Assembly (NCBI GenBank): GCA_947466585.1 | Contig: CANIEU010000010.1 | Span: 1 to 64,000, forward strand | Length of the DNA: 64,000 nt | Direction: 5' to 3' | Source: Fibrobacterota bacterium | Lineage (GTDB): Bacteria; Fibrobacterota; Fibrobacteria; UBA11236 | Shown here: piece by piece, positions 11,412 to 26,835 of the stretch | Numbering within the stretch: the first letter of the stretch is position 1 | Layout of the letters: each line of letters opens with the position of its first letter | Program-made: the position numbers and the translations under genes | The notes under the pieces: model-generated | What the model was told of the DNA's origin: nothing | The model's database searches: none | The model's input: only the letters and a program-made list of their open reading frames with translations

Positions 11412-11426
11412 TCCGGTTCACTCGGT

Positions 11427-11454
11427 GAAAATGAGAGATGGTGAATGAGAAATG
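11427..11454. repeat. Heptamer array, left arm
   Basis: Four 7-nt words (AGAGATG, AGAAATG and variants). The stretch 11442-11458 is the exact reverse complement of 11567-11583 (17 nt). Confidence 0.85.
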
Positions 11455-11563
11455 ATGAGGAACCGGAGATTTTCTAGCCCTTTCCCAGACCGCATTCTCA
11501 TCAAGAGGAGTTGGCTGCAAAGGATTCGAAATTCCTCAGGATCCATCTCCTAAATCTGCGTTC

Positions 11564-11591
11564 TATTCATCATTTCTCATTCATTGTTTCT
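11564..11591. repeat. Heptamer array, right arm
   Basis: Four 7-nt words (CATTTCT, CATTCAT and variants) end 3 nt before the permease ATG at 11595. This arm pairs with the left arm across a loop of about 110 nt. Confidence 0.85.
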
Positions 11592-11594
11592 CCC

Positions 11595-12482
11595 ATGCCT
11601 CGTCCCTCCCGCCCGCCGTTCCTGTTGCTTGCCCCGTTCTTCGCGGTGCTGGCATTGTTCTGGCTGGTGCCGCTCGCACGCGGTCTGTGGATCAGCATGC
11701 AGGGCAATACGTTGTTCGGCACGCCGGCTTTCGTGGGTTTGGAAAATTATCGCGGGCTGCTGACGGATGCGCGCTACGCCCATGCGCTGCGCAACACCGT
11801 GGTTTATTGCGGAATGGTGTTGCTCGCCGTGCTTCCGTTCTCTCTCTTTCTGGCCCACTTGCTGCGCCACGTGCACAAAACCCTGCGCGGGTTCCTGCAC
11901 TTTTGCCTGCTGCTACCCGGCCTCACCCCACCGCTCGTGCTGGCATTGCTGTATTTGCTGGTGTTCCACGGGCCAGCGGGCCTGCTCAATAGCGTGATCG
12001 TGCGGCCGCTGGGGCTCCCGGGAGTGGATTGGATCGCCGATCCACGCTTCATCAAATTCAGTCTCGTGCTCCTCATGCTGTGGCGATGGACAGGGTTCAT
12101 GACCTTGATCTTTCTCTCGGGCATCGAGGGGATTCCGGGCGCCTATCACGATGCGGCCCGCAGCGAGGGCGCCTCCGCATGGCAGCGCTTCCGGCATGTC
12201 ACCCTCCCCCTGCTGCGGCCGGTCACCGCCTTTGCCGCCGCCTTTCTTTTGCTCGACACCTTCGTGCTCTTCGAAGGCGGCTACGTGTTGTTGGGCGGCT
12301 CCGGCGGAACGCTCGACGCCGGCCTATTGCTGGTTTCGTATGCCTATGTGACGGCCTTCACGCTCGGGAATTTCGGCACGGCCGCCGCCGTTTCGTTTTC
12401 GTCCCTGCCCGTTCTGCTCATCGCCCTGTTCGCCATTCTTGCCTGGGGTCGCTCCCGCGCCAAACCGGGGCGCGCGGCATGA
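11595..12482 (+). CDS. Sugar ABC transporter permease (MalF/UgpA type)
   Basis: 295 residues with six predicted membrane helices: LLAPFFAVLALFWLVPLARG, the VVYCGMVLLAVLPFSLFLAHL region, LLPGLTPPLVLALLYLLVF, a fourth around LLMLWRWTGFMTLIFLSG, and two near the C terminus. The EAA loop that docks on the ATPase is DAARSEGASAWQRFRHVTLPLL. I chose ATG 11595 because the longer open frame upstream (from 11511) reads through the heptamer array. The last bases overlap the next permease start (ATGA). Confidence 0.9.
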   Translation: MPRPSRPPFLLLAPFFAVLALFWLVPLARGLWISMQGNTLFGTPAFVGLENYRGLLTDARYAHALRNTVVYCGMVLLAVLPFSLFLAHLLRHVHKTLRGFLHFCLLLPGLTPPLVLALLYLLVFHGPAGLLNSVIVRPLGLPGVDWIADPRFIKFSLVLLMLWRWTGFMTLIFLSGIEGIPGAYHDAARSEGASAWQRFRHVTLPLLRPVTAFAAAFLLLDTFVLFEGGYVLLGGSGGTLDAGLLLVSYAYVTAFTLGNFGTAAAVSFSSLPVLLIALFAILAWGRSRAKPGRAA

Positions 12483-13330
12483 ACCGAAACCTTTTTTCCA
12501 CGATGCGCGTGCGTGCGGGAATCACCTCGGTGGCAGCCACGCTCGTGCTCGCCGCTTTGGCGGTGGCCTTTGCCTTCCCGTTCGTATGGATGCTCACAGC
12601 GGGGTTCAAACCCGACAGCGCCATCTTCAACCCATTCCCCTTGCTGCCCCGGGGTCTCGACGGACGCCACTATCGCTCCCTGTTGTCGGGAGAATGGATT
12701 CCGTACCAGCGCCAGTTCCTGAACTCACTGTTCATCGCTTCGGCGCAAACCGCCTTGGCCACCGGATTCTCCTGCGCGGCCGGTTACGTATTCGCCAAAT
12801 TCGATTTCCGTTTCAAGCGCACGTTGTTCGTGATGGCGGTGTTCACGGTGCTCATCCCGCGTCAGGTAATGGTACTGCCCTTGTTCACCTGGATGAACGA
12901 CCTGAAACTGCTCGATACGCCGTGGGCGGTCATTCTGCCCGGCGCGGCCACGGGCATCGGCCTCCTCTGGTTCACGGCGGTGTATCACCGCCTCCCCGAC
13001 GCCATCCCCGACATGGCACGCAGCGAGGGCGCGGAGGAATACCGGGTTTTCTGGATCACGCTGCCGCTCATCAAACCCGCGATCGTGGCCTTCGCGCTCA
13101 TCCAGTTCACCCTGGCCTGGCAGGAGCACTTGATCCCGCTGGTGATGCTCTTCAGCCCTGAGCGCATGACCATCAACATCGGACTCGCCAGCCTGAACGC
13201 GGGCAGCGTGCGCGTTCCCTACGGCCTGCTTATGGCGGGTTGTACGCTCACCCTGATTCCGACGACGTTATTCTTTGTGCTGGCCTACCGCCACTTCCGC
13301 GCGGCGCTGGGCAAACTCACCGAAGCTTGA
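12479..13330 (+). CDS. Sugar ABC transporter permease (MalG/UgpE type)
   Basis: 283 residues. Six membrane helices begin with TLVLAALAVAFAFPFVWMLTAGFK, where the 'WML-x-x-GFK' block is typical of MalG-type permeases. The EAA loop is DMARSEGAEEYRVFWITLPLIKP. The protein pairs with the preceding permease to form the membrane channel. Its ATG overlaps the TGA of that gene by 4 nt, so translation is coupled. An earlier in-frame start at 12029 only shadows the upstream gene. Confidence 0.9.
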   Translation: MNRNLFSTMRVRAGITSVAATLVLAALAVAFAFPFVWMLTAGFKPDSAIFNPFPLLPRGLDGRHYRSLLSGEWIPYQRQFLNSLFIASAQTALATGFSCAAGYVFAKFDFRFKRTLFVMAVFTVLIPRQVMVLPLFTWMNDLKLLDTPWAVILPGAATGIGLLWFTAVYHRLPDAIPDMARSEGAEEYRVFWITLPLIKPAIVAFALIQFTLAWQEHLIPLVMLFSPERMTINIGLASLNAGSVRVPYGLLMAGCTLTLIPTTLFFVLAYRHFRAALGKLTEA

Positions 13331-13364
13331 ACGACCCATCGAACGACCGATCGAACGACTGGCA
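13329..13364. repeat. Array of three 12-nt words
   Basis: Three 12-nt units begin GAACGAC and vary in the last five bases. They span the permease stop codon and end 4 nt before the Shine-Dalgarno sequence of the ATPase gene. Confidence 0.75.
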
Positions 13365-13380
13365 ACGCAAAGGACACGGC

Positions 13381-14472
13381 ATGGCCGCATTCAGCATCCG
13401 CAATCTTGAGAAGCGATATCCCGGCGCCCCTGTTCCGGCGTTGCGCGATTTTTCGCTCGAGGTCGGAAGCGGAGAACTCGTCGCCATCGTCGGTCCATCC
13501 GGTTGCGGTAAATCGACCTTGCTGCGGATGCTCGCCGGGCTCGAAGCCGAGACCGCGGGAGAAATCCGGTTGGGGGAGCGCGTGCTCACCGGGCTTCCGC
13601 CCAAGGACCGGGATCTCGCTCTCATGTTCCAGAGCTACACATTGCTCCCGCATCTCTCTGTCGAGGAGAACCTCGCCTTCGGCCTCAAACTGCGCGGCGA
13701 GCCGCGACCGAGCCGCCTAGAAAAAGCGCGCGCGATCGCCAAGACCTTGGGCATCGAATCGCTTTTGCGCCGCCTGCCCTCGGAAATCAGTGGCGGCGAA
13801 CGCCAACGTGCGGCGCTGGGGCGTGCGATTCTGCGCAGCCCGGCGGCATTCCTGTTCGATGAACCGCTTTCGAGCCTCGATGCGCAAATGCGATTGCAAT
13901 TGCGTGTGGAGATCCAACGACTGCATCAGCGCGTGCGCGTTCCCATGTTGTTCGTCACCCACGATCAAGGAGAAGCCCTCACGCTCGGCGACCGCGTGGT
14001 GGTGCTCGATCGCGGCGTGATGCAACAAGTGGCCAGCCCCGAAGAACTCTATCGTCGCCCTGCCAACGCCTTCGTAGCCTCCTTCATCGGAGCTCCCGGT
14101 ATGAACCTGTTCAAGGGACGAATCGAAACCAACGAGAACGGGTCGGCCCGGTTCGTCTCCCCCGCCTTGTCGTACGACCTGACGCCGGCGCAGACCGCCG
14201 CGATCAAACCGCACACAGCGATCACCGTCGGCTTGCGTCCCGAACATCTCCGACGCGCCGATGCGTCGGAGGCCCTGTTGCGCGGCGAAGTCACCGCCGT
14301 GGAACGGCAAGCCGGGCAGGCCACATTGTATGTGCAAAGCGGCGACGTTTCCTTCGCCGCGCGCGTAGGCGAAGATTTTTCGGCGCGGCCGGGCGATTTC
14401 TCCGGATGGACGTTCGATCCCGCCGCGGTATCGCTGTTCGCCGGACCCGGAGAAACACGCATCGATTTGTAA
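13381..14472 (+). CDS. Sugar ABC transporter ATP-binding protein (MalK/UgpC type)
   Basis: 363 residues. The Walker A motif is GPSGCGKST at residues 38-46, followed by a Q-loop in LMFQSYTLLPHLSV, a signature ISGGERQRAALGRA, Walker B AFLFDEPLSSLD and a switch His in LFVTHDQGEA. A C-terminal TOBE-type regulatory domain includes VGLRPEHLR. The protein energises the two permeases upstream. An AAAGGA site precedes ATG 13381; an earlier in-frame ATG at 13240 lies inside the permease gene and would add residues encoded by the 12-nt array, so it is unlikely. MalK-type ATPases often serve several importers. Confidence 0.93.
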   Translation: MAAFSIRNLEKRYPGAPVPALRDFSLEVGSGELVAIVGPSGCGKSTLLRMLAGLEAETAGEIRLGERVLTGLPPKDRDLALMFQSYTLLPHLSVEENLAFGLKLRGEPRPSRLEKARAIAKTLGIESLLRRLPSEISGGERQRAALGRAILRSPAAFLFDEPLSSLDAQMRLQLRVEIQRLHQRVRVPMLFVTHDQGEALTLGDRVVVLDRGVMQQVASPEELYRRPANAFVASFIGAPGMNLFKGRIETNENGSARFVSPALSYDLTPAQTAAIKPHTAITVGLRPEHLRRADASEALLRGEVTAVERQAGQATLYVQSGDVSFAARVGEDFSARPGDFSGWTFDPAAVSLFAGPGETRIDL

Positions 14473-14595: not shown

Positions 14596-15051
14596 TCAGG
14601 GCAAAAACCGCGCGCGCTCCGATGCAGAAGGCACCCGGCAGTCTGCCTTTCGACCGAACCAGCGAGTGCGATTGCGTGCGACGAGATCATACAGGGTGTC
14701 GCGCAGAATGCGCGGAACCAGCCGGAATATCTGAACACCCTTCCAGACCCCACCGATATGGACGAGCGCGCGCAACACCGCATCCGACCGGACGAAAATC
14801 TTTCCGTTTTCCAAAAGCACCACACTGCCCGATGTTGCAGGGGAATTTTTGGCGGAGAACGAGGTCTTCAGTGTATCGGGAATCAGGTCGCGAGAAAGTC
14901 GTGCGGCGGCGGTGCTGCCCTGAAGGGGCGCGAAGAAAAAACGATGCCCGTTGTCGTGCGCGATGAGAAAGTCCACAGCGCGATTGCACAGCCCGCAGTG
15001 GCCGTCGAAGAACAAAACGGTCTCGTTCAGAGGCGTAGCATCTTCCCGCAC
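14596..15051 (-). CDS. DCC family thiol-disulfide oxidoreductase (DUF393)
   Basis: 151 residues. The FFDGHCGLC motif near the N terminus places the CxxC at Cys19 and Cys22; together with the DCC-type HRFFFAPLQG and GSVVLLENGKIFVRSDAVLRAL blocks this identifies DUF393. A thioredoxin-like redox role is inferred from the motif, and no substrate is known. The coding region starts inside the end of the amidotransferase gene (25-nt overlap), so the two are surely one transcript with coupled translation. Confidence 0.85.
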   Translation of the reverse strand: MREDATPLNETVLFFDGHCGLCNRAVDFLIAHDNGHRFFFAPLQGSTAAARLSRDLIPDTLKTSFSAKNSPATSGSVVLLENGKIFVRSDAVLRALVHIGGVWKGVQIFRLVPRILRDTLYDLVARNRTRWFGRKADCRVPSASERARFLP

Positions 15052-15764
15052 AATGCTTCCATCCAGAGATTGTTGGCGGCCACATGCACCGCATCCGCCT
15101 TCATGGCCTCGAGCGTTTGGACATACGTGCCCGGCTTGAGGTCACCGCCGCCTTCGGCGACGGACTCGGCGATCCATTGTTCGATGGCCGCGGGCGTGAT
15201 CTCGGGGTGGAATTGCAAACCCACGGCGCGCTCGCCCCAAGCGAAACCTTGATGCGCACAGCCCTCCGAACGGAACAGCGCGGTGGCGTTGGGCGGAATC
15301 GAAAAGGTATCGCCATGCCAATGGAAGGTGGTGAAAAGTTCCGGAAACGCCTCGGCGGCCCAGTGTTCGGTGGCTTCGGAAGGCCCTGAGATTTTTTCCA
15401 CCGGCCACCAACCGATTTCGCGGTGCGCATTGCGTGTGACGGTGCCGCCGAGAGCGACCGACAACAGCTGCGCGCCGAGGCAGAGGCCGAGCACCGGCTT
15501 GCCGGAATCGAGAGCGGCCCGAATCGCGGCCGTCTCCGGGGTCAGCCAGGGATAGAGGTCGACCTCATAGACATTCATCGGCCCACCCAAAACGATCAGA
15601 AAATCGTAGGCGGTGGGCCCGGGCGGGAGTTCCCTGGCAAAAAAACGGGTATAAGCGATGGATGCGACCCGCGCGGCAAATAAGGGCTCCAGCGAGCCGA
15701 GGCCTTCGTGGGCGACATGCTGGAAGACATGGAGGCGGAGCGGAGCGTTGGACGCGGTGGTCAT
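15027..15764 (-). CDS. Class I glutamine amidotransferase-like protein
   Basis: 245 residues, cytoplasmic. It has the nucleophile elbow VLGLCLGAQL with Cys95, then HWHGDTFSIP, and QFHPEIT with His186 and Glu188, so the triad is intact. This is the stand-alone GMP-synthase-like amidotransferase type (YfeJ/YLR126C-like), which is thought to release ammonia from glutamine or act on gamma-glutamyl bonds, but the acceptor is unknown. It is the first gene of a two-gene unit with the DCC protein. A TATTAT box lies 7 nt before the ATG with no Shine-Dalgarno sequence. Confidence 0.88.
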   Translation of the reverse strand: MTTASNAPLRLHVFQHVAHEGLGSLEPLFAARVASIAYTRFFARELPPGPTAYDFLIVLGGPMNVYEVDLYPWLTPETAAIRAALDSGKPVLGLCLGAQLLSVALGGTVTRNAHREIGWWPVEKISGPSEATEHWAAEAFPELFTTFHWHGDTFSIPPNATALFRSEGCAHQGFAWGERAVGLQFHPEITPAAIEQWIAESVAEGGGDLKPGTYVQTLEAMKADAVHVAANNLWMEALCGKMLRL

Positions 15765-15771
15765 TGTGGAA

Positions 15772-15777
15772 ATAATA
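15772..15777 (-). promoter_or_regulatory. TANNNT box of the amidotransferase gene
   Basis: TATTAT on the minus strand, 7 nt before the ATG at 15764. Confidence 0.45.
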
Positions 15778-15916
15778 GCGCATCAGAAATGAATCGGAAG
15801 CACCTCGACCCACCTGGGCATCTAGGGACCTCGACCTCACCTTCTCTCATACTTTTTCACCCCCTTTCCCTGGAACCAGTCCCGCCCTGTCAAAACGTCC
15901 ACTAATTGAGGATGGA

Positions 15917-18517
15917 ATGCCCCTGAAATGTGATCATCCGTTACTCCGCGCATGCCTTCCGGGACTTAAATTTTTTATTCCTGACCCCGCCCTTTTCTTG
16001 ATGCGTCAAGGACTTGCGGGCCAACGACAAGAGGGTGATTTGCGCTGGACAGCGACAGTCCTATCGGTTATTGCGCTCTGTGCCGGTGCCGGTGCCGGGG
16101 GCGCGGCAGGAGCAGCGCATGCTCTCGTGCTGAACGGCAGACTGAGCGACGCCGATTTTCCCGCACCCGCCGCGTACCGGCTGGAATTGTTGGAAACAGG
16201 AGACACGCTCGCCGTGCGCGCCGGAGAATCGTTCGCGCTTCGGCTTCCGCGGGACACCGTGTGGACCTTGTGTTTCCGCAAGGGAACCCCGCCCAAAGCC
16301 TTCGAAAAATGTTTCGAGCTGCACTATGCCGGCAAAGATTCCGTGTTTTCGGCCCGGGTGGGTGGCTCGGCAGGGCATGAGGACGGGGGCATCATTGTCG
16401 CCGAGCCTGCGACTGGCGCTGCTGCCGGCCCTGATTCGTCGACGGCCGGCAATACGGCCGAGCTCGCGGAGATCCCCGCGGCGGCGCAGGAAGACGCAGT
16501 GCGTCTGCAAAAAGTGGTGTTGCGCGCGCAGCGCATCCCCAAGCGCGCCATGGGGCGTGAAACCGTGTCGGCCAAGCTGATCAAGCGCATGCCCGGTCTC
16601 GCCGAGGCCGACGTGATCCGATCGATCCAAGGTCTCCCCGGCGTAGTGGCCAGCTCCGACTTCTCCACCAAGATCTATGTGCGCGGCGGTGGCAGCGATC
16701 AAAACCTAATCCTGTTCGACAACGCTCCCGTGTTTTCGCCCACACACTTCTTCGGTTTGTTCTCCACCTTTCTGGTGGAAGGCGTGGATGATGTGACCTT
16801 TTACAAAAGCGGATTTCCCTCCGAATACGGAAACCGACTTTCCTCGGTACTCGACGTGAAATCGCGCAAGGGCGGCAAAGACACTGCGGACTCCTGGTTC
16901 CAGGGATCCTCGCTCAAGATCAGCACCTTCGCCACCCAGGCGCATACCGAGGGTAGGCAGGGCAATTTGAGCTGGCTGTTCGCGGGACGCACCACGTATA
17001 TCAAACAGGTGATCGACTACCTGCGGGAAAAGGGTGTCACCGACCTCGTGCTCGACTATTACTTCTATGACATGCAGGGCAAGGTCGCCTATAATCTGGG
17101 CGATGGCCGCGAAGTCAGCATGTCGCTCTACCAAGGGCGCGACCGCCTGAACTTCGATCCCTTCTTGGTCGACTGGGGCAACACGGTGGTACCGCTCAAC
17201 CTGAAATGGCGTTACTCCAACGTGCTTGATTCGAGGACGACGTTGTCGTATAGTTTGATGAGCCAATCATTCGGACTGGAAAGTATTTTCGAGTTCTACA
17301 ATCATATCGTCACGATGCAGACCCGGCATCTGTTCGAGTATTCGGGAATCAACGATCACCGATTGACTCTCGGCGGCGCGGTCGATCACACCAATATCGT
17401 TTTCCGCAACACCCAGAATGTGGCGGGAATCACCCAGCGCGACGAAACGCCATTCCTATTGACCAGTCTGTTCGCCCAGGACAAATGGACGCCCGGGGAT
17501 GGACACACTTGGGAGTTCTCACCCGGTCTGCGTCTCAATTACATGAGCACGCTGAACAAGGCTTCGTTCGAACCCCGGCTCACCATCAAGCGCCAATTGC
17601 CTGCGAACCAATCCTTGGATTTCCACGTTGGACGTTATGTGCAGTACATCAATTCGATCTTGTTCACCGACCAGGAGAGCTTGAACGAGTTTTACTATGC
17701 GGCCCAGCCTGCGAAATATCGCACGGCGGAACCCGCAACCTCCTGGCTCTTCGCGTTGGGTTACTCCAAAGAACAGATCTTCAACACCTTCAACTTTTCT
17801 CTTGAAGCCTACTACAAATCGCTTAAGCACCTGCTGATCTCTTCCTCTTCCTCCGACGTGCCCGATTCGATCTCCAACGACCCAAACGCTGAGTTTGGCG
17901 ACTTCTTCAAAGAAGCGGAGGGGTATTCGTTCGGTTACGAGACATCACTCCGCAAGCCGAACGGAATCGTGCAAGGCGGGGTGAGTTATTCCAGCGGCAC
18001 CTCGGTGATCCGCGAGCAGTATTTCGATCAGGCGTATTACCCGAAATGGCATCAGCCCCACAGCCTGAAAATCGACCTCGCGATGAACTGGACCGGAGCC
18101 GACGGCTTGTGGTTTTCGTCGCGAAAAAACAAGCGCTACTTCCGCTCTTCATCCCAGATCAAATATGCTACCGGGCTACCCTACACCGAAACGGTGGGGT
18201 ACGAGCCTTCGCATCTGATCGACCAAAATCTGGGAGAGAACGCCGGCGGCCCCACTCCGGTTTTCGAAGACAACGTGCAGACGCTTTACGGAAACTACAA
18301 CACCGCCTTCGTTCCCTCGTATTTCCGCTGGGACATCAAGCCCGTCGATTGGGGTCGTGAAGGCAAATGGAATTTTTCATGGACGATCCTGAACATCACC
18401 GACCACGAAAACGTGTTCTTCTATAGTTACGATCGACAGAAAAACCCGCCGCAGCGGATCACCGTTGCACAGTTCCCCTTCTTCCCGGTACTTTTCAGTG
18501 GTGAATTTTACTTCTGA
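15917..18517 (+). CDS. TonB-dependent receptor of the TonB2-like operon
   Basis: 866 residues from ATG 15917. A signal sequence appears only at about residues 43-70 (TATVLSVIALCAGAGAGGAAGAAHA). The true start may therefore be ATG 16001, but only 15917 has a Shine-Dalgarno-like TTGAGG. After a short extension domain comes a plug: PGLAEADVIRSIQGLPGV, STKIYVRGGGSDQNLILFDNAPVFSPTHFFG and SSVLDVKSRKGG, all standard for TonB-dependent receptors. About 600 residues of barrel strands follow, ending FPVLFSGEFYF with a terminal Phe. It is the first gene of a run of eight genes on one strand that also encodes its probable energising complex. The ligand is unknown. Confidence 0.88.
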   Translation: MPLKCDHPLLRACLPGLKFFIPDPALFLMRQGLAGQRQEGDLRWTATVLSVIALCAGAGAGGAAGAAHALVLNGRLSDADFPAPAAYRLELLETGDTLAVRAGESFALRLPRDTVWTLCFRKGTPPKAFEKCFELHYAGKDSVFSARVGGSAGHEDGGIIVAEPATGAAAGPDSSTAGNTAELAEIPAAAQEDAVRLQKVVLRAQRIPKRAMGRETVSAKLIKRMPGLAEADVIRSIQGLPGVVASSDFSTKIYVRGGGSDQNLILFDNAPVFSPTHFFGLFSTFLVEGVDDVTFYKSGFPSEYGNRLSSVLDVKSRKGGKDTADSWFQGSSLKISTFATQAHTEGRQGNLSWLFAGRTTYIKQVIDYLREKGVTDLVLDYYFYDMQGKVAYNLGDGREVSMSLYQGRDRLNFDPFLVDWGNTVVPLNLKWRYSNVLDSRTTLSYSLMSQSFGLESIFEFYNHIVTMQTRHLFEYSGINDHRLTLGGAVDHTNIVFRNTQNVAGITQRDETPFLLTSLFAQDKWTPGDGHTWEFSPGLRLNYMSTLNKASFEPRLTIKRQLPANQSLDFHVGRYVQYINSILFTDQESLNEFYYAAQPAKYRTAEPATSWLFALGYSKEQIFNTFNFSLEAYYKSLKHLLISSSSSDVPDSISNDPNAEFGDFFKEAEGYSFGYETSLRKPNGIVQGGVSYSSGTSVIREQYFDQAYYPKWHQPHSLKIDLAMNWTGADGLWFSSRKNKRYFRSSSQIKYATGLPYTETVGYEPSHLIDQNLGENAGGPTPVFEDNVQTLYGNYNTAFVPSYFRWDIKPVDWGREGKWNFSWTILNITDHENVFFYSYDRQKNPPQRITVAQFPFFPVLFSGEFYF

Positions 18518-18524
18518 CATCCGT

Positions 18525-20192
18525 ATGCCGGCGAAAGTCGGAATGAAAACCGTCACCCTGCGGTGGGGTGCGTTTTTCGGCGCCTCGCTTTTCTGCGTCG
18601 CACTGTTCGGCGCCTGTCTGCCCGGACCGTGGAGCTATTACCCGAGCAGTGACCCTGCGTTCCGGGGGATCTCGGTCTCGGGCTATGCCGTGGCCGATCG
18701 GCCCGTGGAGCATCTCTGTTTCGAGAAAGTGCTGACGCTGGAGGAGGCGTCCTCCGAGGGGTTCCCGTTTTACGACAGCGCCTCGGTGGGCATCACGGGG
18801 GTGTTTTCCAACGGAGGGCAAACGTTGTCGCTGACGCGCGATGCGAATACGCCCAACTGCTTTGTGGGATCGGCTGCCGCCCGTTTCGTGCGCGGCGAAA
18901 GCTATGCGCTCAACGCACGTTTCGTTTGGGACAGCGCGGGGATCCCCAGCGTTACCGTACTGACTTCGACAGCGCAGATTCCGACCTACTTCCACATCGC
19001 CGACACAGCCCACGCCCCCGGACTTACCTCTACCGGCGTGGCGATGGACAATATCACCGATCCCGACGTGTTCAACAAACTGCCGCCGGCGGCCCGGGCC
19101 TTCTTCGTCGCACGATATGGTGACACGCTCACCGCGCTCGATGGCGACAGCGTAGGCCTTGCCGCCTGGAAAGCCGCAAACGAGATCAGCATGAAGCAGA
19201 ATCTCATGCTGTTCCTGATCTCGAACGACCGCACCGAGCGCCGCGGTGACACGGTCTATTACCTCAACGCAACCAACAACTTCAGCAACCTGTCACATTA
19301 TTTCAAAGTCCGCCGCGACAACCTGGTGAAAGGCGTCCTCATCTCCCACCGCTACGATACGACCGAAAGTCGGCCGGCGACCTCTTTCGACAGTATTCTG
19401 GGACTTGCCCCGGATTCCGCCTCGTTCTACGCACCAGGCAACTATCGCCGACTCGTTTTCTTCAGCGAGTTTCGCAATCCCGACGGACGGGATGGGTTCG
19501 ATTCCCTGGGTGTGGTCAACGCATGGTTTTGGAGCGGACGAAACCGGTTGTATTTCTACGGAACGGAAAAGATTTATTCGGACTTTCAGGTGGCCCGCGA
19601 AGAAGGAGACGGGAATCCGAAAATCAACCTTCCCACCAACGTCACCGGCGGTCGCGGATTTTTCGCCGGCATGATTGTGGATTCCTTCGACCTTCACCTG
19701 AGACTCGATTCGGAAACGCAAACCTTCCCGTACGCTTTAACACGGGCGGCTGCGTGCCGCGACAACGGCTGGCACAAATCGCGCGATTGCATCAGCTACT
19801 ATCCAGAATACTGTCAGATCAATAATTGGAAGCCGGACGACTGCAAGCTGGACGCCATCTACCGCGGCATGGATCCCGTAGACAGTCTGACCTTGACCCC
19901 CGCACTGCGCGACTCGGCACGCGCATGGACCGGTTTGGACGCCGCCCTGAATCTGGAGGCGGCACGACGTTATTGTACCGACAAGAATTACCCCGTGGGA
20001 GTCACCGCGTGCACTGCCGTTAAGAATCAATGCGAAAACTCACAGTCCGGTAACGGTTGCCAGATTTTGTTGTGGAAACGTTGCGCGCTCGACTACTGGA
20101 GACTACCCGCGTGCGCCGAGGGAGCAAAATCCTTTTGTCGCGCCAATCGGGATGTGAATTTGGTGATGTGCCGTAATGTTGAAGGCCCGTAG
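18525..20192 (+). CDS. Lipoprotein partner of the receptor (DUF4249-like)
   Basis: About 555 residues. The lipobox LFGAC places the lipidated Cys at residue 31, or residue 25 if ATG 18543 is used; both starts are possible and neither has a strong Shine-Dalgarno site. Residues 45-165 follow the DUF4249 pattern: ISVSGYAVADRPVEHLCF, then a beta-rich section ending SVTVLTSTAQIPTYF. DUF4249 lipoproteins are commonly encoded next to TonB-dependent receptors in Bacteroidota. The C-terminal third is rich in cysteine (about a dozen, for example CRDNGWHKSRDC and CTDKNYPVGVTAC), suggesting disulfides in an exposed domain. It follows the receptor stop by 7 nt. A surface-exposed ligand-capture role is inferred. 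Confidence 0.65.
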   Translation: MPAKVGMKTVTLRWGAFFGASLFCVALFGACLPGPWSYYPSSDPAFRGISVSGYAVADRPVEHLCFEKVLTLEEASSEGFPFYDSASVGITGVFSNGGQTLSLTRDANTPNCFVGSAAARFVRGESYALNARFVWDSAGIPSVTVLTSTAQIPTYFHIADTAHAPGLTSTGVAMDNITDPDVFNKLPPAARAFFVARYGDTLTALDGDSVGLAAWKAANEISMKQNLMLFLISNDRTERRGDTVYYLNATNNFSNLSHYFKVRRDNLVKGVLISHRYDTTESRPATSFDSILGLAPDSASFYAPGNYRRLVFFSEFRNPDGRDGFDSLGVVNAWFWSGRNRLYFYGTEKIYSDFQVAREEGDGNPKINLPTNVTGGRGFFAGMIVDSFDLHLRLDSETQTFPYALTRAAACRDNGWHKSRDCISYYPEYCQINNWKPDDCKLDAIYRGMDPVDSLTLTPALRDSARAWTGLDAALNLEAARRYCTDKNYPVGVTACTAVKNQCENSQSGNGCQILLWKRCALDYWRLPACAEGAKSFCRANRDVNLVMCRNVEGP

Positions 20193-20211
20193 GTCGTTAC
20201 CGGAAATTTTA

Positions 20212-20220
20212 GTGGAGGAG
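20212..20220 (+). promoter_or_regulatory. Strong Shine-Dalgarno that sets the DUF3450 start
   Basis: GTGGAGGAG lies 6 nt before ATG 20227 and favours this start over the in-frame ATG at 20176, which overlaps the lipoprotein gene. Confidence 0.7.
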
Positions 20221-20226
20221 AAAAAC

Positions 20227-21177
20227 ATGAAACGATGGACCTGGCAAAAATGCGCTCTTCCGGTGCTGCTGATGGCGCTGGCCATCGGCGTGCCGAAGGC
20301 GCAGGAACCGAATGCCGCAGGCGGCTCCGGTGCGAACGGAGAGGTCGAACGGTTGCGAGCCGAAATCGTGCGCCTCAAGCGCGACATCGCGCGGGCGGAA
20401 TCCGAGATTCGGCGCAACGATTCGCTCGGACGCGAAGAGCAGGCCGCCGACGCCCAAAACCGAGAGCGCCTGTCGCGCGATCGCGAACGGCGCGAGAAGG
20501 AAAACGCCGCACTTGAAGCCCGCGTGCGGGATACCCGGGCGCGCATATCCTCTGAGAAGGCGCGCGAAGGTTCCTACAAGACGGAGGCTGACGAAATCGT
20601 CGCTCGTCAAAAGACCGTGCTGGCCTTCTTGGCTGTGGTCGCGGACTCGCTGGCCTCACGTGTGGATGCGGGCATCCCTTGGGACGTTTCCGCACGGAAG
20701 GATCGCGTCCTCTCTCTGCAGCGCGACATCACCGCCGGCTCCACCACTCCCGAAGAGGCCTTCGCCCGCCTCGGCGCCTTGTTGCGCGAGGAGATCAAAA
20801 ACGGCGATGAGGTGACGCTTTCAACACGCCCGCTCACCCGCCAAAACGGGGAAGTGGTCAATGCCCAAATCCTGAAAATCGGAAATCAGGCGATCCTTTA
20901 CGTTGATGACGAAGGCAAGAAATTCGGGATACTCGAGCCCCACACCCAAGGTGGCCTCACCTCTTGGGTTTGGCGTGAGCGCCTGGACCTGTCCGAACGC
21001 AGCGCCATCAAGCGCGCCGTCGGCGTGAAGGCCGGTCGCGAAGCCCCGCAGTTGGTACCGCTGATGGTACCGCTTGTCGGGTTGATCGGCTATTCCGAAA
21101 ATACCACTGCCACCGGAAGCGCTCCGGCTACCGCGCCGCAAACCGACACCAGTACCGCCGTGGAAGGAGGTCGGTGA
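20227..21177 (+). CDS. DUF3450-like periplasmic coiled-coil protein
   Basis: 316 residues. A signal peptide spans residues 1-25 (LLMALAIGVPKAQ). Residues 37-125 form a long coiled coil (VERLRAEIVRLKRDIARAESEI). The globular part contains VARQKTVLAFLAVVADSLASRVDAGIPWD and ALLREEIKNGDEV, matching DUF3450 proteins that precede ttpC in Vibrio and Shewanella TonB2 loci. It probably works in the periplasm with TtpC or the receptor; the mechanism is unknown. The stop overlaps the next ATG by one base. Confidence 0.75.
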   Translation: MKRWTWQKCALPVLLMALAIGVPKAQEPNAAGGSGANGEVERLRAEIVRLKRDIARAESEIRRNDSLGREEQAADAQNRERLSRDRERREKENAALEARVRDTRARISSEKAREGSYKTEADEIVARQKTVLAFLAVVADSLASRVDAGIPWDVSARKDRVLSLQRDITAGSTTPEEAFARLGALLREEIKNGDEVTLSTRPLTRQNGEVVNAQILKIGNQAILYVDDEGKKFGILEPHTQGGLTSWVWRERLDLSERSAIKRAVGVKAGREAPQLVPLMVPLVGLIGYSENTTATGSAPATAPQTDTSTAVEGGR

Positions 21178-22658
21178 TGCTGGGCCGCAACTTAGGATTC
21201 GTCTCCCTTCTGGCACTCCTAGTCGCGACGGGCGCGATCGCAAAGGACGAGGCGTCCCCCGCCGAAGCCCTTCGGCGAGAAGTAATCTCACTCGAATCGT
21301 TGCGAGCCGAAAAGCTCGACGCGCTTGAGCGTCGAGAAGCCACGCGTTGGGACGCCCGATACAAATCCGTAGCGCAAACCCGTGAATCCGAAGATCGCAT
21401 CCGCGAGCTCGAAGAGGCCTTCGGCCGTCTCTCGGGAGATGCCGCGCGGCTTGAGGAAGAATGGGTCAAGGCCCGCAACACGGCCGATGAAAGCAAGGAG
21501 GCCCTGGAAACGGCCCGCGAAGGATACGACGGCTTCGTCGCCCAATTCCGCGGCAAGGTCGATGAAGCGGCGGGTGCCGTTTCTTCCGACTTCCCGATCG
21601 GCCTCGAAGCGCGCACGCTCGCCTATTCCAAGGTCTCGCAATCCCTCACGGGTGACAAACCCGAAGTATTCGCGGCACTGAAGCTCTACTGGAGCGCCAG
21701 GCTTACGCGGCTGGATCTGACCCGCAGCCGGTCGCTGGAATCACGCCCCGCTTTGCTTGAAGACGGTCGCAACGTTCCGGCATGGCGCCTGCGCTTGGGA
21801 ACCGTGTTCGTCGCCGAACTCGAAAAGGAAGGCCAAGGCGCTTCCCAGATTCTCCTCCGCACCGGCAGCCTGCAGGGACGCACCTTCGCCTGGCGTCAGA
21901 ACCTCGCGGGAGGCAACAACACGCTGCTCCGCAAGGCCGTTCAGGCCGCCGTTCAGGGCAAGGAAACCGCCCTCATTCCCTTCGACGTATTGCAATTCCG
22001 CAGCACTGGATCGGGGTTTACGCAGGGCGAAAGCGAAACCATTTTGGCCCGCTTTCAGGCCTGGTTCAAGGCGGGTGGCGTCACCTTGTATCCGCTCTTC
22101 GCCGTCGGATTCCTCGCGTTGTTCCTGGTCGTCGAGCGTCTGGTCTACTACGGCCGCCGCTCCACCGACACTGAAAAGTTCATGGCCGGGTATCGCGTCT
22201 TCGCCGATCACGGCGATTGGGAAGCGGCGGCCGTCTATGCCGCGCGTTCGGAGAGCAGCCTCAGCCGCACCATGCGGGCGGTGGCGGAACATGCGGGAGG
22301 CACGCGCGATGCGGCCGAACGCGCCGTCCAGGAAGTGCTGCTTCAGGAAATCCCGGGTCACGAAAAACGCCTTTCCCTGTTGGCCGCCACCGGAACCGCC
22401 TCGCCGCTGCTGGGTCTGCTCGGAACCGTGTCGGGTCTCGTGACTCTGTTCAAAACAATGAACCAGCTGGGCGCCAGCGACCCCAAGTTGCTTTCGGGCG
22501 GCATCTCCGAAGCCCTCATCAATGCCGAAACCGGTTTGGCCATCGCCATTCCGGTGCTGCTCATCCACGGCTGGCTACAGGAGCGTTCGGACGCCATGAA
22601 CGCGACGCTCTCCTCATGCAGCCTCGAAATGCTGAACAAGATCTGGCCGGAGGGATAA
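21177..22658 (+). CDS. ttpC: TtpC-like MotA/TolQ/ExbB protein with periplasmic coiled-coil domain
   Basis: 493 residues, more than twice the length of ordinary ExbB. A signal peptide (residues 1-22) and a coiled-coil stretch (about 25-115) are followed by a periplasmic domain. The C-terminal 200 residues are a proton-channel domain with three helices: GVTLYPLFAVGFLALFLVVE, ASPLLGLLGTVSGLVTLFK and ETGLAIAIPVLLIHG. This is the architecture of TtpC, the fourth component of Vibrio TonB2 systems. ATG 21177 is favoured over GTG 21174 because GGAGG lies 6 nt upstream. It overlaps the DUF3450 stop and is followed closely by exbB. Confidence 0.85.
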   Translation: MLGRNLGFVSLLALLVATGAIAKDEASPAEALRREVISLESLRAEKLDALERREATRWDARYKSVAQTRESEDRIRELEEAFGRLSGDAARLEEEWVKARNTADESKEALETAREGYDGFVAQFRGKVDEAAGAVSSDFPIGLEARTLAYSKVSQSLTGDKPEVFAALKLYWSARLTRLDLTRSRSLESRPALLEDGRNVPAWRLRLGTVFVAELEKEGQGASQILLRTGSLQGRTFAWRQNLAGGNNTLLRKAVQAAVQGKETALIPFDVLQFRSTGSGFTQGESETILARFQAWFKAGGVTLYPLFAVGFLALFLVVERLVYYGRRSTDTEKFMAGYRVFADHGDWEAAAVYAARSESSLSRTMRAVAEHAGGTRDAAERAVQEVLLQEIPGHEKRLSLLAATGTASPLLGLLGTVSGLVTLFKTMNQLGASDPKLLSGGISEALINAETGLAIAIPVLLIHGWLQERSDAMNATLSSCSLEMLNKIWPEG

Positions 22659-22661
22659 CAA

Positions 22662-23327
22662 GTGTGGGACGTCATTCTCGAAACTTGGGGCGAGGGCGGC
22701 ATCGTATTGGTGCCGATCTTCCTTGCCGCGTTTTGGGGTTTTGTCCTCGTGTTGCGTACGTGGATCCGCATGGGACGTGGACGGGGCGAAAAAGACGTCA
22801 TGCGCGTGTTCGACGAAATCGCCCGCCGCCTCGAAGCCGGTGACGAAGTCGGAGCGCGCGTCGCCGCCGGTCGTTTGCCGCGCGTCGCCGGTTTCGGCGC
22901 CACGCTTTTGCTCGACAACACCGCCCTACCCGAAGACGCCCAGCGCGCGCTACTTGAAGAAAAACTGGCCAGCCGACTGTTCCAGATGGAGCGCCACATT
23001 CCCTTGATCCAGTCGCTCGCCGCCGCCGCTCCGCTTCTCGGCCTGCTGGGTACGGTTAGCGGCCTCATCCACACCTTCCAGGCCATGAAAGAGTTCGGCA
23101 GCGGCAATTCCCAACTGCTCTCGCGCGGCATCTCCGAGGCCCTCATCGCCGCGCAGACCGGCCTGCTGGTCGCCATCATCCTGATCTTGATGGGCCACAG
23201 CCTCGAGGGCCGCATCCGCTGGCTGAAGGATCAAACCGAATACGGCATCACCTTGCTGCTCAATCTCGCCGCGCGCCGTCATCCCGACACGGCGGGCGCG
23301 TCGAAACCGAAAGGGCTCCGCACATGA
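22662..23327 (+). CDS. exbB: ExbB2-like MotA/TolQ/ExbB proton channel protein
   Basis: 221 residues. The first helix is GGIVLVPIFLAAFWGFVLVLR, followed by the channel domain with LIQSLAAAAPLLGLLGTVSGLIHTF and TGLLVAIILILMGHSLEG. It forms the inner-membrane motor with ExbD and powers TonB. The start is GTG at 22662, supported by GGAGGG 7 nt upstream. The sequence is similar in arrangement to the C-terminal part of the preceding TtpC-like protein, as in Vibrio TonB2 loci. The stop overlaps the ATG of exbD (ATGA). Confidence 0.92.
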   Translation: MWDVILETWGEGGIVLVPIFLAAFWGFVLVLRTWIRMGRGRGEKDVMRVFDEIARRLEAGDEVGARVAAGRLPRVAGFGATLLLDNTALPEDAQRALLEEKLASRLFQMERHIPLIQSLAAAAPLLGLLGTVSGLIHTFQAMKEFGSGNSQLLSRGISEALIAAQTGLLVAIILILMGHSLEGRIRWLKDQTEYGITLLLNLAARRHPDTAGASKPKGLRT

Positions 23328-23731
23328 AAACCTTCCTGATCCCCTCGCGCCGCAAAACCGGTTTCCACATCGACGTGGTGCCGCTCATCGACGTGGTGTT
23401 CGTGATCCTGATCTTCAACATCATGAGCTCCACGCTCACGCAGCAAACCGGGGTCGACGTCGACAAGCCCAAGGCGCAATCGGCAGGCGAACTCAACCGC
23501 CAGAGCATTCTGGTGGCGATCACGCGTGACGGCAGCATCCACGTCAACGAACGCCAGATCGAAGCGGGCGGATTGCAGGATGTACTGCAGCGCCTGCTTG
23601 CCAGCAGCGCGACCGGTGAGGTCGTCATCGTGGCCGATCGCGAATCCAACACCGGCTTGCTGGTCGGCGTCATGGACGCCTGCAACCTCGCTGGCGCGAA
23701 AAAAATCTCGGTGGCGGCACTCTCCCAGTGA
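23324..23731 (+). CDS. exbD: ExbD2-like biopolymer transport protein
   Basis: 135 residues. One N-terminal membrane helix (VVPLIDVVFVILIFNIMSS) carries the conserved Asp23 that takes part in proton passage. The periplasmic domain includes LVAITRDGSIHVNER and VVIVADRESNTGLLVGVMDAC, normal for ExbD. It is coupled by a 4-nt overlap to exbB and is followed by tonB after 10 nt. Confidence 0.93.
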   Translation: MKTFLIPSRRKTGFHIDVVPLIDVVFVILIFNIMSSTLTQQTGVDVDKPKAQSAGELNRQSILVAITRDGSIHVNERQIEAGGLQDVLQRLLASSATGEVVIVADRESNTGLLVGVMDACNLAGAKKISVAALSQ

Positions 23732-23741
23732 ACAATGCGCA

Positions 23742-24374
23742 ATGAAAAAGTTTCTGCGTAATCTTTTCATCGGACTCGTGGCCGCGCTGGCGGCGGGTCT
23801 CGCGACCGTAGTGTTGCCGCTGGTCAACCACTTGCTGCACGACAACGGCCGCAAAAAAGACGTGCCCCGCGTCGTCGCCGAAGTCAACGTGGTGCGCGCC
23901 CTCGAACCTCCCAAACCACAAATGCGTCCGCAGCGCGCCGTACAGCAACCGCAACGCGCCAAGCCCATGCCCTCCAGCCTCCGTTCCGGTCCGCGTTTCG
24001 CTATGGATCTCGGCGTCATGGGTTCCGGGGCCATCGCCCCGCCCGAGCTGGTCAACCGCAAAAGTGGCAACGGCGGAACCGGAGAAACCGGTGTCGACGA
24101 AAAACCCATACCCTCGTCTCCCCCGCCCTTCCGCATGCCGGACGAAGTCAAACGCCGCGAACAGGACGCATACCTTCTGCTCTCCTTCTGCGTCGACGCC
24201 AACGGCCGTCCCTACGACATCCGCGTCGCTCAGGAAAAGCCCGCCGGTCTCGGCCTCGCCGCTGCGGGACGCGACGCCTTGCAACAAACCCGTTTCACCC
24301 CGGCGCGCAAAGGCACCACTTCCGTGCCGTTCTGCGGACTCGAACAACCCTTTGAAATCCGCTTCTCGAACTAG
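23742..24374 (+). CDS. tonB: TonB family energy transducer
   Basis: 210 residues. An N-terminal anchor (FIGLVAALAAGLATVVLPLV) is followed by a Pro/Arg/Gln-rich linker (residues about 55-85, with PKPQ and PQRA repeats). The C-terminal TonB domain (residues about 140-210) contains AYLLLSFCVDANGRPYDIRV and LQQTRFTPARKG. Two cysteines in this domain (near residues 149 and 201) may form a disulfide. It transmits ExbBD energy to a receptor, most simply the one encoded at the start of this operon. ATG 23742 was chosen because the longer frame only shadows exbD. Confidence 0.85.
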   Translation: MKKFLRNLFIGLVAALAAGLATVVLPLVNHLLHDNGRKKDVPRVVAEVNVVRALEPPKPQMRPQRAVQQPQRAKPMPSSLRSGPRFAMDLGVMGSGAIAPPELVNRKSGNGGTGETGVDEKPIPSSPPPFRMPDEVKRREQDAYLLLSFCVDANGRPYDIRVAQEKPAGLGLAAAGRDALQQTRFTPARKGTTSVPFCGLEQPFEIRFSN

Positions 24375-24390
24375 CCTGCCTGCCTGAATC

Positions 24391-24419
24391 CAGAACCCAC
24401 AGGAATCCCCAGGAACCCG
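24391..24419. repeat. Three degenerate 9-10-nt words
   Basis: CAGAACCCA, CAGGAATCCC and CAGGAACCCG follow one another directly before the TPR gene start. Confidence 0.5.
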
Positions 24420-24421
24420 CC

Positions 24422-25615
24422 ATGCCCCGCATCCATTGCATCCACCCATCCGGCCAGACGACATGGACGAACCGTTTGATCGGATCGATGCTGTTCCCGA
24501 TCCTGCTCTGCGGTGGTTCCCTCACGGGGGCTCTTGCGCAGGATCGCGTCGCGGTTCCATCGGCGGTCCCGTCGGCGGTTCCCGCCGACGATCTGCTGGC
24601 GCGCGGCAACACCCTCTATGCCAAAGGCGAATACGCCAAGGCCTTGCTCCTCTATCGCCGTGCCGAAGGGCGCGGTGCAGATCGCGCCGCGGCGGCCTTC
24701 AACGAAGGCAACTGCCTCTTCCAAATGAACCGGTTTCCCGATGCCGCCGCAGCCTATAAAAAGGCGGTGCGGTACTCCAAGGGAACCATGGCGCCCGCGC
24801 AGATCAACCTCGCCGCGGTGTTGTTCCGCATGGAGCAATACGGCGAAGCCATCGCCGCCTACCGCCGCGTGGTGCGCGACGATCCGGAAAACATGAGCGC
24901 ATGGCTGTATCTTGCAGACGCATCCACACGGGTCAAGGACTATGCCGGCGCGCTGCGCGCCATTGAGAAGGCGCGCGCGCTCGACCCCGACGAAGCCACC
25001 CTCGTCTACCAAACCGCCGAGATCCACGCGGCAATGAAAGAGTACGACAACGCCGTCACCCTGGTGCGGCAGGCTTTCGCGCTCAAACCTACCGAGGTGG
25101 ACTTCCTTTTTTACATCGGCGACCTGCGGCGCGCGCAAGGAAAATTCGGCGAAGCCGCCTCCGCATACCGCGAAGGGCTGGCGCTCCGGCCCAATGACCC
25201 GGACGCCCTCTACAAGCTGGCCGACGCCCTCGTGCGCGACGGCAAACCCTTTGTGGCCATGGATCCGCTCCAGCAAGCACTCGCCATCAAGCCCGACTAC
25301 AGCGACGCTGCCGTGTTCCTCGGCAATCTCGCCTTCGACGCGCAGTGGTGGGAGCGCAGTGAGGCGGCCTACCGACAGGCTCTCGAAAACAAAAACCGCG
25401 AAGGGCTCGAAGGCCTCCGCAACCTAGCGTTCGAGCTGCATCGCCAGGGGCGCGACGATGCCGCCGCCGATCTCTTGACGCGCACCGCGAAGCTCGTACC
25501 CGGCGATAAGGAATTGGCCGCCGAGATCGCGCAATACCGCGAGCTGGCCAACGCGGCGAGCAGTGGGAATTCCGATAAAATGGATAAGATGGATAAATCG
25601 GGCGCGGCGCAATAA
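24422..25615 (+). CDS. Periplasmic tetratricopeptide-repeat protein of the TonB2-like operon
   Basis: 397 residues. The signal peptide cleaves after GALAQ (about residue 40). About nine TPR helices pairs follow, with typical A-x-x-x-Y/G-x-x-A spacing: LLARGNTLYAKGEYAKALLLYRRAE, NEGNCLFQMNRFPDAAAAYKKA, LYLADASTRVKDYAGALRAIEKA and so on. TPR proteins close the TonB2 loci of Vibrio and Shewanella and are thought to be scaffolds. It ends in a short MDKMDK tail encoded by a 9-nt repeat. Confidence 0.85.
   Translation: MPRIHCIHPSGQTTWTNRLIGSMLFPILLCGGSLTGALAQDRVAVPSAVPSAVPADDLLARGNTLYAKGEYAKALLLYRRAEGRGADRAAAAFNEGNCLFQMNRFPDAAAAYKKAVRYSKGTMAPAQINLAAVLFRMEQYGEAIAAYRRVVRDDPENMSAWLYLADASTRVKDYAGALRAIEKARALDPDEATLVYQTAEIHAAMKEYDNAVTLVRQAFALKPTEVDFLFYIGDLRRAQGKFGEAASAYREGLALRPNDPDALYKLADALVRDGKPFVAMDPLQQALAIKPDYSDAAVFLGNLAFDAQWWERSEAAYRQALENKNREGLEGLRNLAFELHRQGRDDAAADLLTRTAKLVPGDKELAAEIAQYRELANAASSGNSDKMDKMDKSGAAQ
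25574..25600. repeat. Three 9-nt words inside the end of the TPR gene
   Basis: GATAAAATG, GATAAGATG and GATAAATCG, read in frame as DKM, DKM, DKS. Confidence 0.7.
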
Positions 25616-25662
25616 AAAAAGGCCGCCCGCCCATCCCTCGACGGGAAAAGCGAACGGCTTTT
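25613..25662. terminator. Probable bidirectional terminator
   Basis: AAAAGGCCG (25617-25625) and CGGCTTTT (25655-25662) pair with a bulge, with an inner CCCG/CGGG stem. A- and T-runs on either side would serve the TPR gene and the convergent barrel gene. Confidence 0.5.
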
Positions 25663-25681
25663 CAACCAATCAAAGTTTCGG

Positions 25682-26473
25682 TTACAACGTGAAGTAAACC
25701 GATCCCCAAATGCCCACGGTCGCCGACTGATTCTTGCCCATCAGCGTTACCGGCAGGTTCACTTCGTAGGAGATCTTGTCGTCCTGTTTGAAGTTGAGAC
25801 CCGGAAGCACCGTGAACAAGTACCCGTCGTCACCCTTGGCGACACCATTGGACTTGCCTTCGGTGAACGCGTTGACCTTCAGGCCCAGGTAGGTGCCGGT
25901 CTGCGCGTTCCACACATATTCCGGCTTGGCGAACAAGGTGAACACATCGCTGTTCTTGTTGTCGCCAGAGGGCAGGCTGTATTGATACGACGCCTGACCC
26001 ACCAAACGGAACTCGGGTGAGAATTGATCGGCATACACGCCGCCCAGACCCACGGCCGTTCCCGGCGCCGGATTCGAAGAGTAGTCGGACAGGCCCACGG
26101 GAAGTACCACGTTCAGGTAGGCCCCGAAGGTTTTCCAATCCGCGTTCGAGTACTTCAACGCCAGCTCGGGACGATCCACGCCCGCTTTGCCGCCCGCGTC
26201 GGTGTTGTTGGAGACCACGGGCACGTACAGTTCCAGATCCATACCTGCCATCACGCCATATTTGACCTGCAGCGGCACGGCGTTGGTCATCGGAGATCCG
26301 ACGACGTCCTGCTTGTCGCCATTGGCGTCATAGCCGCCGGTGCCCTTGGTGCCGGCATATCCGACATCGATTTCCCAAGCACCTTGCCCGATCGGGAGGT
26401 ATTCGTCCACGGCGAAGCTCGCAGAGGCGAGACCCAAACAGGCGATGGCGATTTTGGTTTTCAAACGATTCAT
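25682..26473 (-). CDS. Outer-membrane beta-barrel protein (phenol MetA-deg-like)
   Basis: 263 residues. A signal peptide ends at SFA (residue 21). Twelve or so amphipathic strands are visible, starting GAWEIDVGYAG, with PLQVKYGVMAGMDLELYVPVV, GLGGVYADQFSPEFRLVGQASYQYS and a closing GIWGSVYFTL. The 'v-yG-t-d-lelg-vp' turn pattern is that of the Phenol_MetA_deg / transporter-like barrel family, whose members are channel or sensor proteins of unknown substrate. A good AAGGAG site precedes the ATG. It stands alone between convergent and divergent neighbours. Confidence 0.65.
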   Translation of the reverse strand: MNRLKTKIAIACLGLASASFAVDEYLPIGQGAWEIDVGYAGTKGTGGYDANGDKQDVVGSPMTNAVPLQVKYGVMAGMDLELYVPVVSNNTDAGGKAGVDRPELALKYSNADWKTFGAYLNVVLPVGLSDYSSNPAPGTAVGLGGVYADQFSPEFRLVGQASYQYSLPSGDNKNSDVFTLFAKPEYVWNAQTGTYLGLKVNAFTEGKSNGVAKGDDGYLFTVLPGLNFKQDDKISYEVNLPVTLMGKNQSATVGIWGSVYFTL

Positions 26474-26835
26474 TCAAGTCTCCTTGTTCCGTTTAAGTTC
26501 CTCATGGAACCGTGAGGGGAACGTACGCGGAACCACAAAAAAACGCAATAAGTTTGTGGCGAATTTCGTGTTTTATACGGAACTCAAAAACGGTCGAATT
26601 GCCGCAAAATCATTGTTTTTTGTGGTATTTCGATGTTTTTTCTCAAACCGCAAAAAATTGCCGTGCCGTCAAAACAACGAGTGGTCCAAAAGATTGCGCG
26701 CCAGCGCACGGGAAATCTCTCCCAGCTGCCCGGAAGGAACAGCGCGGGAAGGTGGTCGATCCTCTTCGAAAGGATCGCGTTTTCGAGGCCCTTCGCCGGC
26801 AGACGGCCTTTACACGTTGGCTACTATTCCCGACC
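26474..26835. other. AT-rich 362-nt gap between divergent genes
   Basis: No gene seen. 26520-26660 is strongly AT-rich against the GC-rich background. A 7-bp hairpin, CGATCCT at 26757-26763 with AGGATCG at 26771-26777, lies in the GC-normal part before the CDF gene. An open frame across this region (from 26512) has no coding character. Confidence 0.5.
26822..26827 (+). promoter_or_regulatory. TANNNT box of the CDF transporter gene
   Basis: TACTAT, 8 nt before ATG 26836, with no Shine-Dalgarno sequence. Confidence 0.45.

Follow-up and report, generated by a model that had tools for sequence, protein, structure and literature searches.

Can a TonB motor belong to one outer-membrane receptor alone? 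TonB motors are usually regarded as shared among many receptors, and the question is raised by a locus in a stretch of 64,000 nucleotides (the window), which represents contig C10 of a Fibrobacterota metagenome-assembled genome (2.24 Mb, 98% complete). Here, eight plus-strand open reading frames (ORFs; 15917-25615) follow each other in the order TonB-dependent receptor (TBDR), lipoprotein, DUF3450 (TtpB), TtpC, ExbB, ExbD, TonB and tetratricopeptide repeat (TPR) protein. All eight are present in the order and on the strand given by a first-pass annotation of this DNA, and Pfam supports each of them except the lipoprotein. Overall, our comparisons make it likely that this cassette is a dedicated TonB-dependent importer, i.e. 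that the receptor and the lipoprotein are driven by a Ttp motor of their own; a dedicated receptor-motor cassette had already been proposed by the annotation, and conserved linkage, a common clade of the linked motors and joint absence all argue for it.

DUF3450 regions were taken phylum-wide and annotated by profiles made from the window proteins. The full eight-gene order was found in 24 complete cassettes, the window's included, and is therefore not a product of chance. These cassettes belong to families f1, f2, f3 and f5 of the class Fibrobacteria, plus one in another class (G065, L083), the latter forming a long branch and coming from a genome with 6% contamination. In 36 of the 37 relatives with a cassette-type lipoprotein (the exception being G013), coordinates place its gene within about 9 kb of a DUF3450 gene. 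Receptor, lipoprotein and six-gene motor have long been inherited as a unit in this bacterial class and are conserved in it. The annotation had also seen in the locus a combination of parts from different phyla, which is only partly right: the DUF4249 kinship to Bacteroidota stands, but both halves are old in Fibrobacterota, with TtpB above cut-off in 82 of 101 genomes of the phylum and the lipoprotein in 39 of 41 relatives, so that this is not a recent mixture. With both halves so widespread, a recent import from Bacteroidota or Gammaproteobacteria is not favoured either.

The history of the motor genes points in the same direction. Phylogenies of TtpC, ExbB, TonB and DUF3450 each place the receptor-linked proteins in one clade, on one side of a branch with a support of 98-100, and the receptor-linked label changes once on the trees compared with about 20 times in shuffles; the trees are quick searches in which some long branches meet, and their inner details are less sure. 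Ttp clusters without a receptor fall outside the receptor-linked clade even within one genome, and most genomes with a complete cassette also have such a receptor-less cluster of six genes, TtpB to TPR. Genome G023 has no lipoprotein, one Plug protein and one Ttp cluster, which is placed in the receptor-less clade, so that the receptor pair and its linked motor are absent together; G024 has the same counts (its Ttp cluster is not on the tree). The linked motor might nevertheless drive all TonB-dependent receptors of the cell, with the receptor pair being only co-regulated. Such general service has a counterpart in Vibrio parahaemolyticus, where the motor transcribed together with peuA, TonB2, works for PvuA1 as well (PMC4141801), and would suit the B12-type receptor of the window's genome, which has no adjacent motor. 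It seems unlikely, however, given that most of the cassette genomes examined also keep the receptor-less cluster of the separate clade, and that G023 lacks the linked motor together with the pair although another receptor remains.

The pair itself adjoins a motor in more than one setting. In five loci (L119, L120, L121, L124, L125) receptor, lipoprotein, ExbB, ExbD and TonB stand together without any Ttp gene, and in L118 (G075) a Ttp cluster is directly preceded by a DUF4249 protein of Pfam grade (64 bits) and by a receptor fragment lying at the end of the contig; TtpC of this cluster sits in another part of the tree than cassette TtpC. L118 apparently represents a separate origin of the pair-motor association. 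As to other Ttp clusters, a third one in the window's genome (L005:1-1959) is cut at the end of contig C2, and other Fibrobacterota families have ExbB and ExbD of such clusters combined in a single fusion protein of about 345 amino acids (L071:11861-12898, L072:11205-12239, L074:11823-12860, L081:3773-4804, L082:6623-7660).

The lipoprotein had been called DUF4249-like by the annotation. The window protein has a lipobox and 11 Cys residues that are invariant across the orthologue alignment, and it ends in a Cys-rich C-terminal region that is missing from the five-gene variant. It has no Pfam match of its own, falling below the DUF4249 family cut-off, but DUF4249 (PF14054) matches 14 of 29 orthologues, several above cut-off, and comparison of the family profile with four Bacteroidota DUF4249 proteins by hhalign gave an E value of 7e-12, against 0.23 in the reversed control. 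By this profile evidence, the protein belongs with DUF4249 as a divergent relative, to which a Cys-rich domain has been added. The window receptor shares its subfamily with TBDRs that stand before DUF4249 in Bacteroidota. Against the sequences of solved structures, the receptor gave no match and the lipoprotein none that was credible (best E 0.08).

That the motor is of the TonB2/TtpC type and follows the Vibrio/Alteromonas order, as annotated, is borne out by Pfam matches, by gene order and by matches of the TtpC profile to TtpC of Pseudoalteromonas, Alteromonas and Vibrio (E 1.9e-43 to 8e-55). The N-terminal domain of TtpC aligns with a profile of 67 DUF3450 rows over 245 columns (hhalign probability 99.7, E 3e-26), and reversed controls reach only 5e-5 to 1e-3. 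Because the N-terminal halves are long coiled coils and the window's own TtpC matches DUF3450 weakly (E 0.017), the likeness could in principle stem from coiled-coil composition, a caveat that the annotation had raised itself, with the genes being coincidental neighbours. We consider this hardly credible: the globular, non-coiled-coil part of TtpB and the TtpC tail alone gives E 1.5e-15, with reversed controls at 0.008-0.016, and the linkage is conserved over several families. As judged from these alignments, TtpB and the periplasmic domain of TtpC are homologues. Window-type TtpB is also homologous to gammaproteobacterial DUF3450, and gammaproteobacterial DUF3450 is matched by the Fibrobacterota TtpC profile (E 1e-13 and 1e-9); a direct comparison of gammaproteobacterial TtpB and TtpC, with two sequences per side only, gave no significance. 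The TtpD position is held by the TPR protein, whose profile has a weak match in the Vibrio protein (E 4e-6) and none in the Alteromonas one, TPR repeats being generic. Solved structures matching TtpC by sequence were TolQ/ExbB only, in the channel part, and AlphaFold2 models of TtpC and of the lipoprotein, built from alignments of two sequences only (window, L004), were unusable (mean predicted local distance difference test scores of 45 and 30, respectively). Fusions of DUF3450 with ExbB-like proteins are already on record (PMC12505986).

How would such an importer operate? Receptor and DUF4249-type surface lipoprotein may form a barrel-and-partner pair in the outer membrane, in which the lipoprotein might act as a lid. 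ExbB/ExbD would serve as the proton-driven stator and TonB as the force-transmitting rod, with TtpC as a second ExbB-like subunit that carries a periplasmic tail; TtpB would be a free copy of the tail domain, probably assembling with the TtpC tail, and the TPR protein could provide a periplasmic scaffold. A bolder version, which we put forward tentatively as a possibility rather than an expectation, is a 1:1 receptor-motor machine of Fibrobacteria for one conserved substrate: the receptor, with its disulfide-rich DUF4249-type partner, would be driven only by its own Ttp motor, and TtpB and the TtpC tail, as two copies of one domain, would build a receptor-specific periplasmic structure.

Several points weigh against a dedicated importer. 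Linkage and common ancestry are no proof that a motor serves this receptor alone, and the function of the cassette is read here from its genes. The eight proteins vary together, with correlations of 0.86-0.97 between their pairwise identities, which speaks for the cassette as a unit but partly mirrors the species tree. Moreover, in some Fibrobacter-like genomes (L058, L126, L127, L130) opposite-strand genes split receptor, lipoprotein or motor, so that strict co-transcription is not required, even if the window genes would by their spacing be transcribed together. Class-wide co-inheritance of receptor, lipoprotein and full Ttp motor, in genomes that are small and hold no more than about two Plug receptors, offers a simple system in which to ask whether motors can be private. 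Homology of TtpB and the TtpC tail also suggests a testable idea, i.e. mixed assembly of one domain, for essential but unexplained Vibrio proteins; in Vibrio, TonB-dependent uptake requires TtpB, TtpC and TtpD, and TtpB2 and TtpD2 are both essential in the TonB2 system of Vibrio vulnificus (PMC6957404).

With respect to the substrate, the window's genome has two Plug proteins, the cassette receptor and one other. Upstream of the latter lies a cobalamin riboswitch (64.5 bits, L113:8299-8557), for which reason it is probably the B12 receptor and the cassette probably takes a substrate other than vitamin B12. No known riboswitch (Rfam) was found in 14900-26600, and the best Fur box match in the cassette promoter (10/19) was not above shuffled sequence, with the consensus used possibly differing from the Fur sites of this phylum. 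The cassette is not accompanied by metabolic genes, and the TBDR-like barrel and DUF4249-like lipoprotein could conceivably be a motor-driven device for surface sensing, export or envelope maintenance. In line with this, several Fibrobacter-like genomes (L060:15181-18778, L126:3-3894, L129:14075-17070, L058:17294-19705) have, immediately upstream of the receptor gene and on its strand, genes for an extracytoplasmic function (ECF) sigma factor, for what may be an anti-sigma protein and for a protein with a caspase domain. These neighbours are lineage-specific, however, the caspase gene being located elsewhere in other Fibrobacter-like genomes and absent from the window's genome, and the Bacteroidota kin of the receptor are annotated as transporters paired with DUF4249; we therefore hold a role other than import to be quite improbable, and transport would probably be inward.

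The cassette receptor is a candidate for the outer-membrane uptake receptor that is so far missing in Fibrobacter, where the route of cellodextrin transport has been left open (PMC6851124). Fibrobacter succinogenes FSU_0431-0435 is not favoured as this cassette, the published values (57.9 kDa, isoelectric point 9.54; TPR protein, 6.22) being nearer to the receptor-less paralogue; cellulose brought no increase in FSU_0431 and FSU_0435 (PMC6851124). An S66 LD-carboxypeptidase-like lipoprotein (here and below, names given by eye) is encoded on the opposite strand between the lipoprotein and DUF3450 genes (L058:10290-11435, L126:13186-14487, L127:8203-9396, L130:10013-11149), in L126 along with a NagZ-like gene, and in L058:13228-14637 and L130:6811-8220 receptor and lipoprotein are separated by a gene resembling a sodium symporter. 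Muropeptide uptake, as suggested by the S66-like neighbour, is a weak proposal, this gene being on the opposite strand and confined to a few related genomes.

In the window, the cassette (table 1) is bounded at its 3' end by a convergent gene (25682-26473, minus strand) and at its 5' end by a divergent one (15027-15764, minus strand). No gap between its eight genes exceeds 47 bp, the junctions being, in order, a 17-bp overlap (receptor/lipoprotein), 34 bp, a 1-bp overlap, 3 bp, a 4-bp overlap, 10 bp and 47 bp; the 34-bp gap contains a ribosome-binding site (RBS), and no promoter or terminator was predicted between receptor pair and motor, a separation that the annotation had named as evidence against its reading. 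The receptor ORF start at 15917 is over-extended, with alignment setting the start near 16001-16040, and starts were corrected to 20227 (DUF3450), 21177 (TtpC) and 23742 (TonB). For the lipoprotein, GTG at 18501 is most likely the start; it gives a 17-bp overlap with the receptor gene that most orthologues share (17 of 26 loci). Upstream, 10110-14472 holds genes resembling a sugar ATP-binding cassette (ABC) transporter (binding protein, permease, ATPase).

Table 1. Features of the receptor-motor cassette in the window.
Feature	Position	Strand	Remarks
Region 5' of receptor	15765..16000	+	Presumed operon promoter region; divergent from gene 15027-15764 (-); no Rfam match or Fur-like site above shuffles
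TonB-dependent receptor (TBDR)	15917..18517	+	Plug PF07715, 33.6 bits; plug domain and N-terminal extension; probable start 16001-16040
Lipoprotein	18501..20192	+	Lipobox, DUF4249-like domain, Cys-rich C-terminal domain; GTG start
TtpB (DUF3450)	20227..21177	+	PF11932, 72.5 bits; RBS GGAGGAG; presumed soluble periplasmic protein
TtpC	21177..22658	+	MotA_ExbB, 91.1 bits; N-terminal DUF3450-like periplasmic domain and ExbB/TolQ-type proton-channel domain
ExbB	22662..23327	+	MotA_ExbB, 89.5 bits; PLLGLLGTV motif conserved
ExbD	23324..23731	+	PF02472, 88.5 bits; 4-bp overlap with exbB; conserved membrane Asp D23
TonB	23742..24374	+	TonB_C, 29.9 bits (cut-off 24.6); conserved Cys pair in C-terminal domain
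TPR protein, TtpD position	24422..25615	+	TPR models up to 127.6 bits; closes the intact cassettes

How, then, does the cassette relate to known systems? SusCD-type pairs consist of a receptor and a surface lipoprotein with a possible lid mechanism; the layout is similar, but the cassette lipoprotein has no SusD-family match in Pfam or NCBIfam. DUF4249 partners have been reported for Bacteroidota, where BT2172 and BT2173 mutants are similar in phenotype (PMC11003636). The window receptor has some of its best plasmid-borne matches in Bacteroidota, and directly after these receptors DUF4249 was found in 4 of 4 cases checked; these four pairs, however, have no adjoining motor genes, and it is the Fibrobacterota lipoprotein that carries the extra Cys-rich C-terminal domain.

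On the motor side, the six-gene order of Vibrio TonB2 (TtpB2-TtpC2-ExbB2-ExbD2-TonB2-TtpD2) is identical in Pseudoalteromonas and Alteromonas records, whose DUF3450, TtpC, ExbB, ExbD and TonB are homologous to those of the cassette, whereas a DUF4249-like lipoprotein is not described for the Vibrio system. That a receptor shares its operon with a Ttp motor has a precedent in V. parahaemolyticus, where peuA lies directly upstream of the TonB2 genes, is co-transcribed with them and needs TonB2 (PMC4141801). The layout also occurs in Alteromonas pBGP9, where the receptor upstream of the Ttp motor is unrelated at profile level to the cassette receptor. In contrast to the Fibrobacterota cassette, which is class-wide and has no Fur-like site, peuA is regulated by Fur and does not extend beyond the V. 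harveyi group. In the literature searched, the combination of a receptor, a DUF4249-type lipoprotein and a Ttp motor was not found described. Thus, co-transcription of a receptor with a Ttp motor was already known from peuA-tonB2; what the Fibrobacterota cassette adds is the DUF4249-type partner and the deep conservation of the whole.

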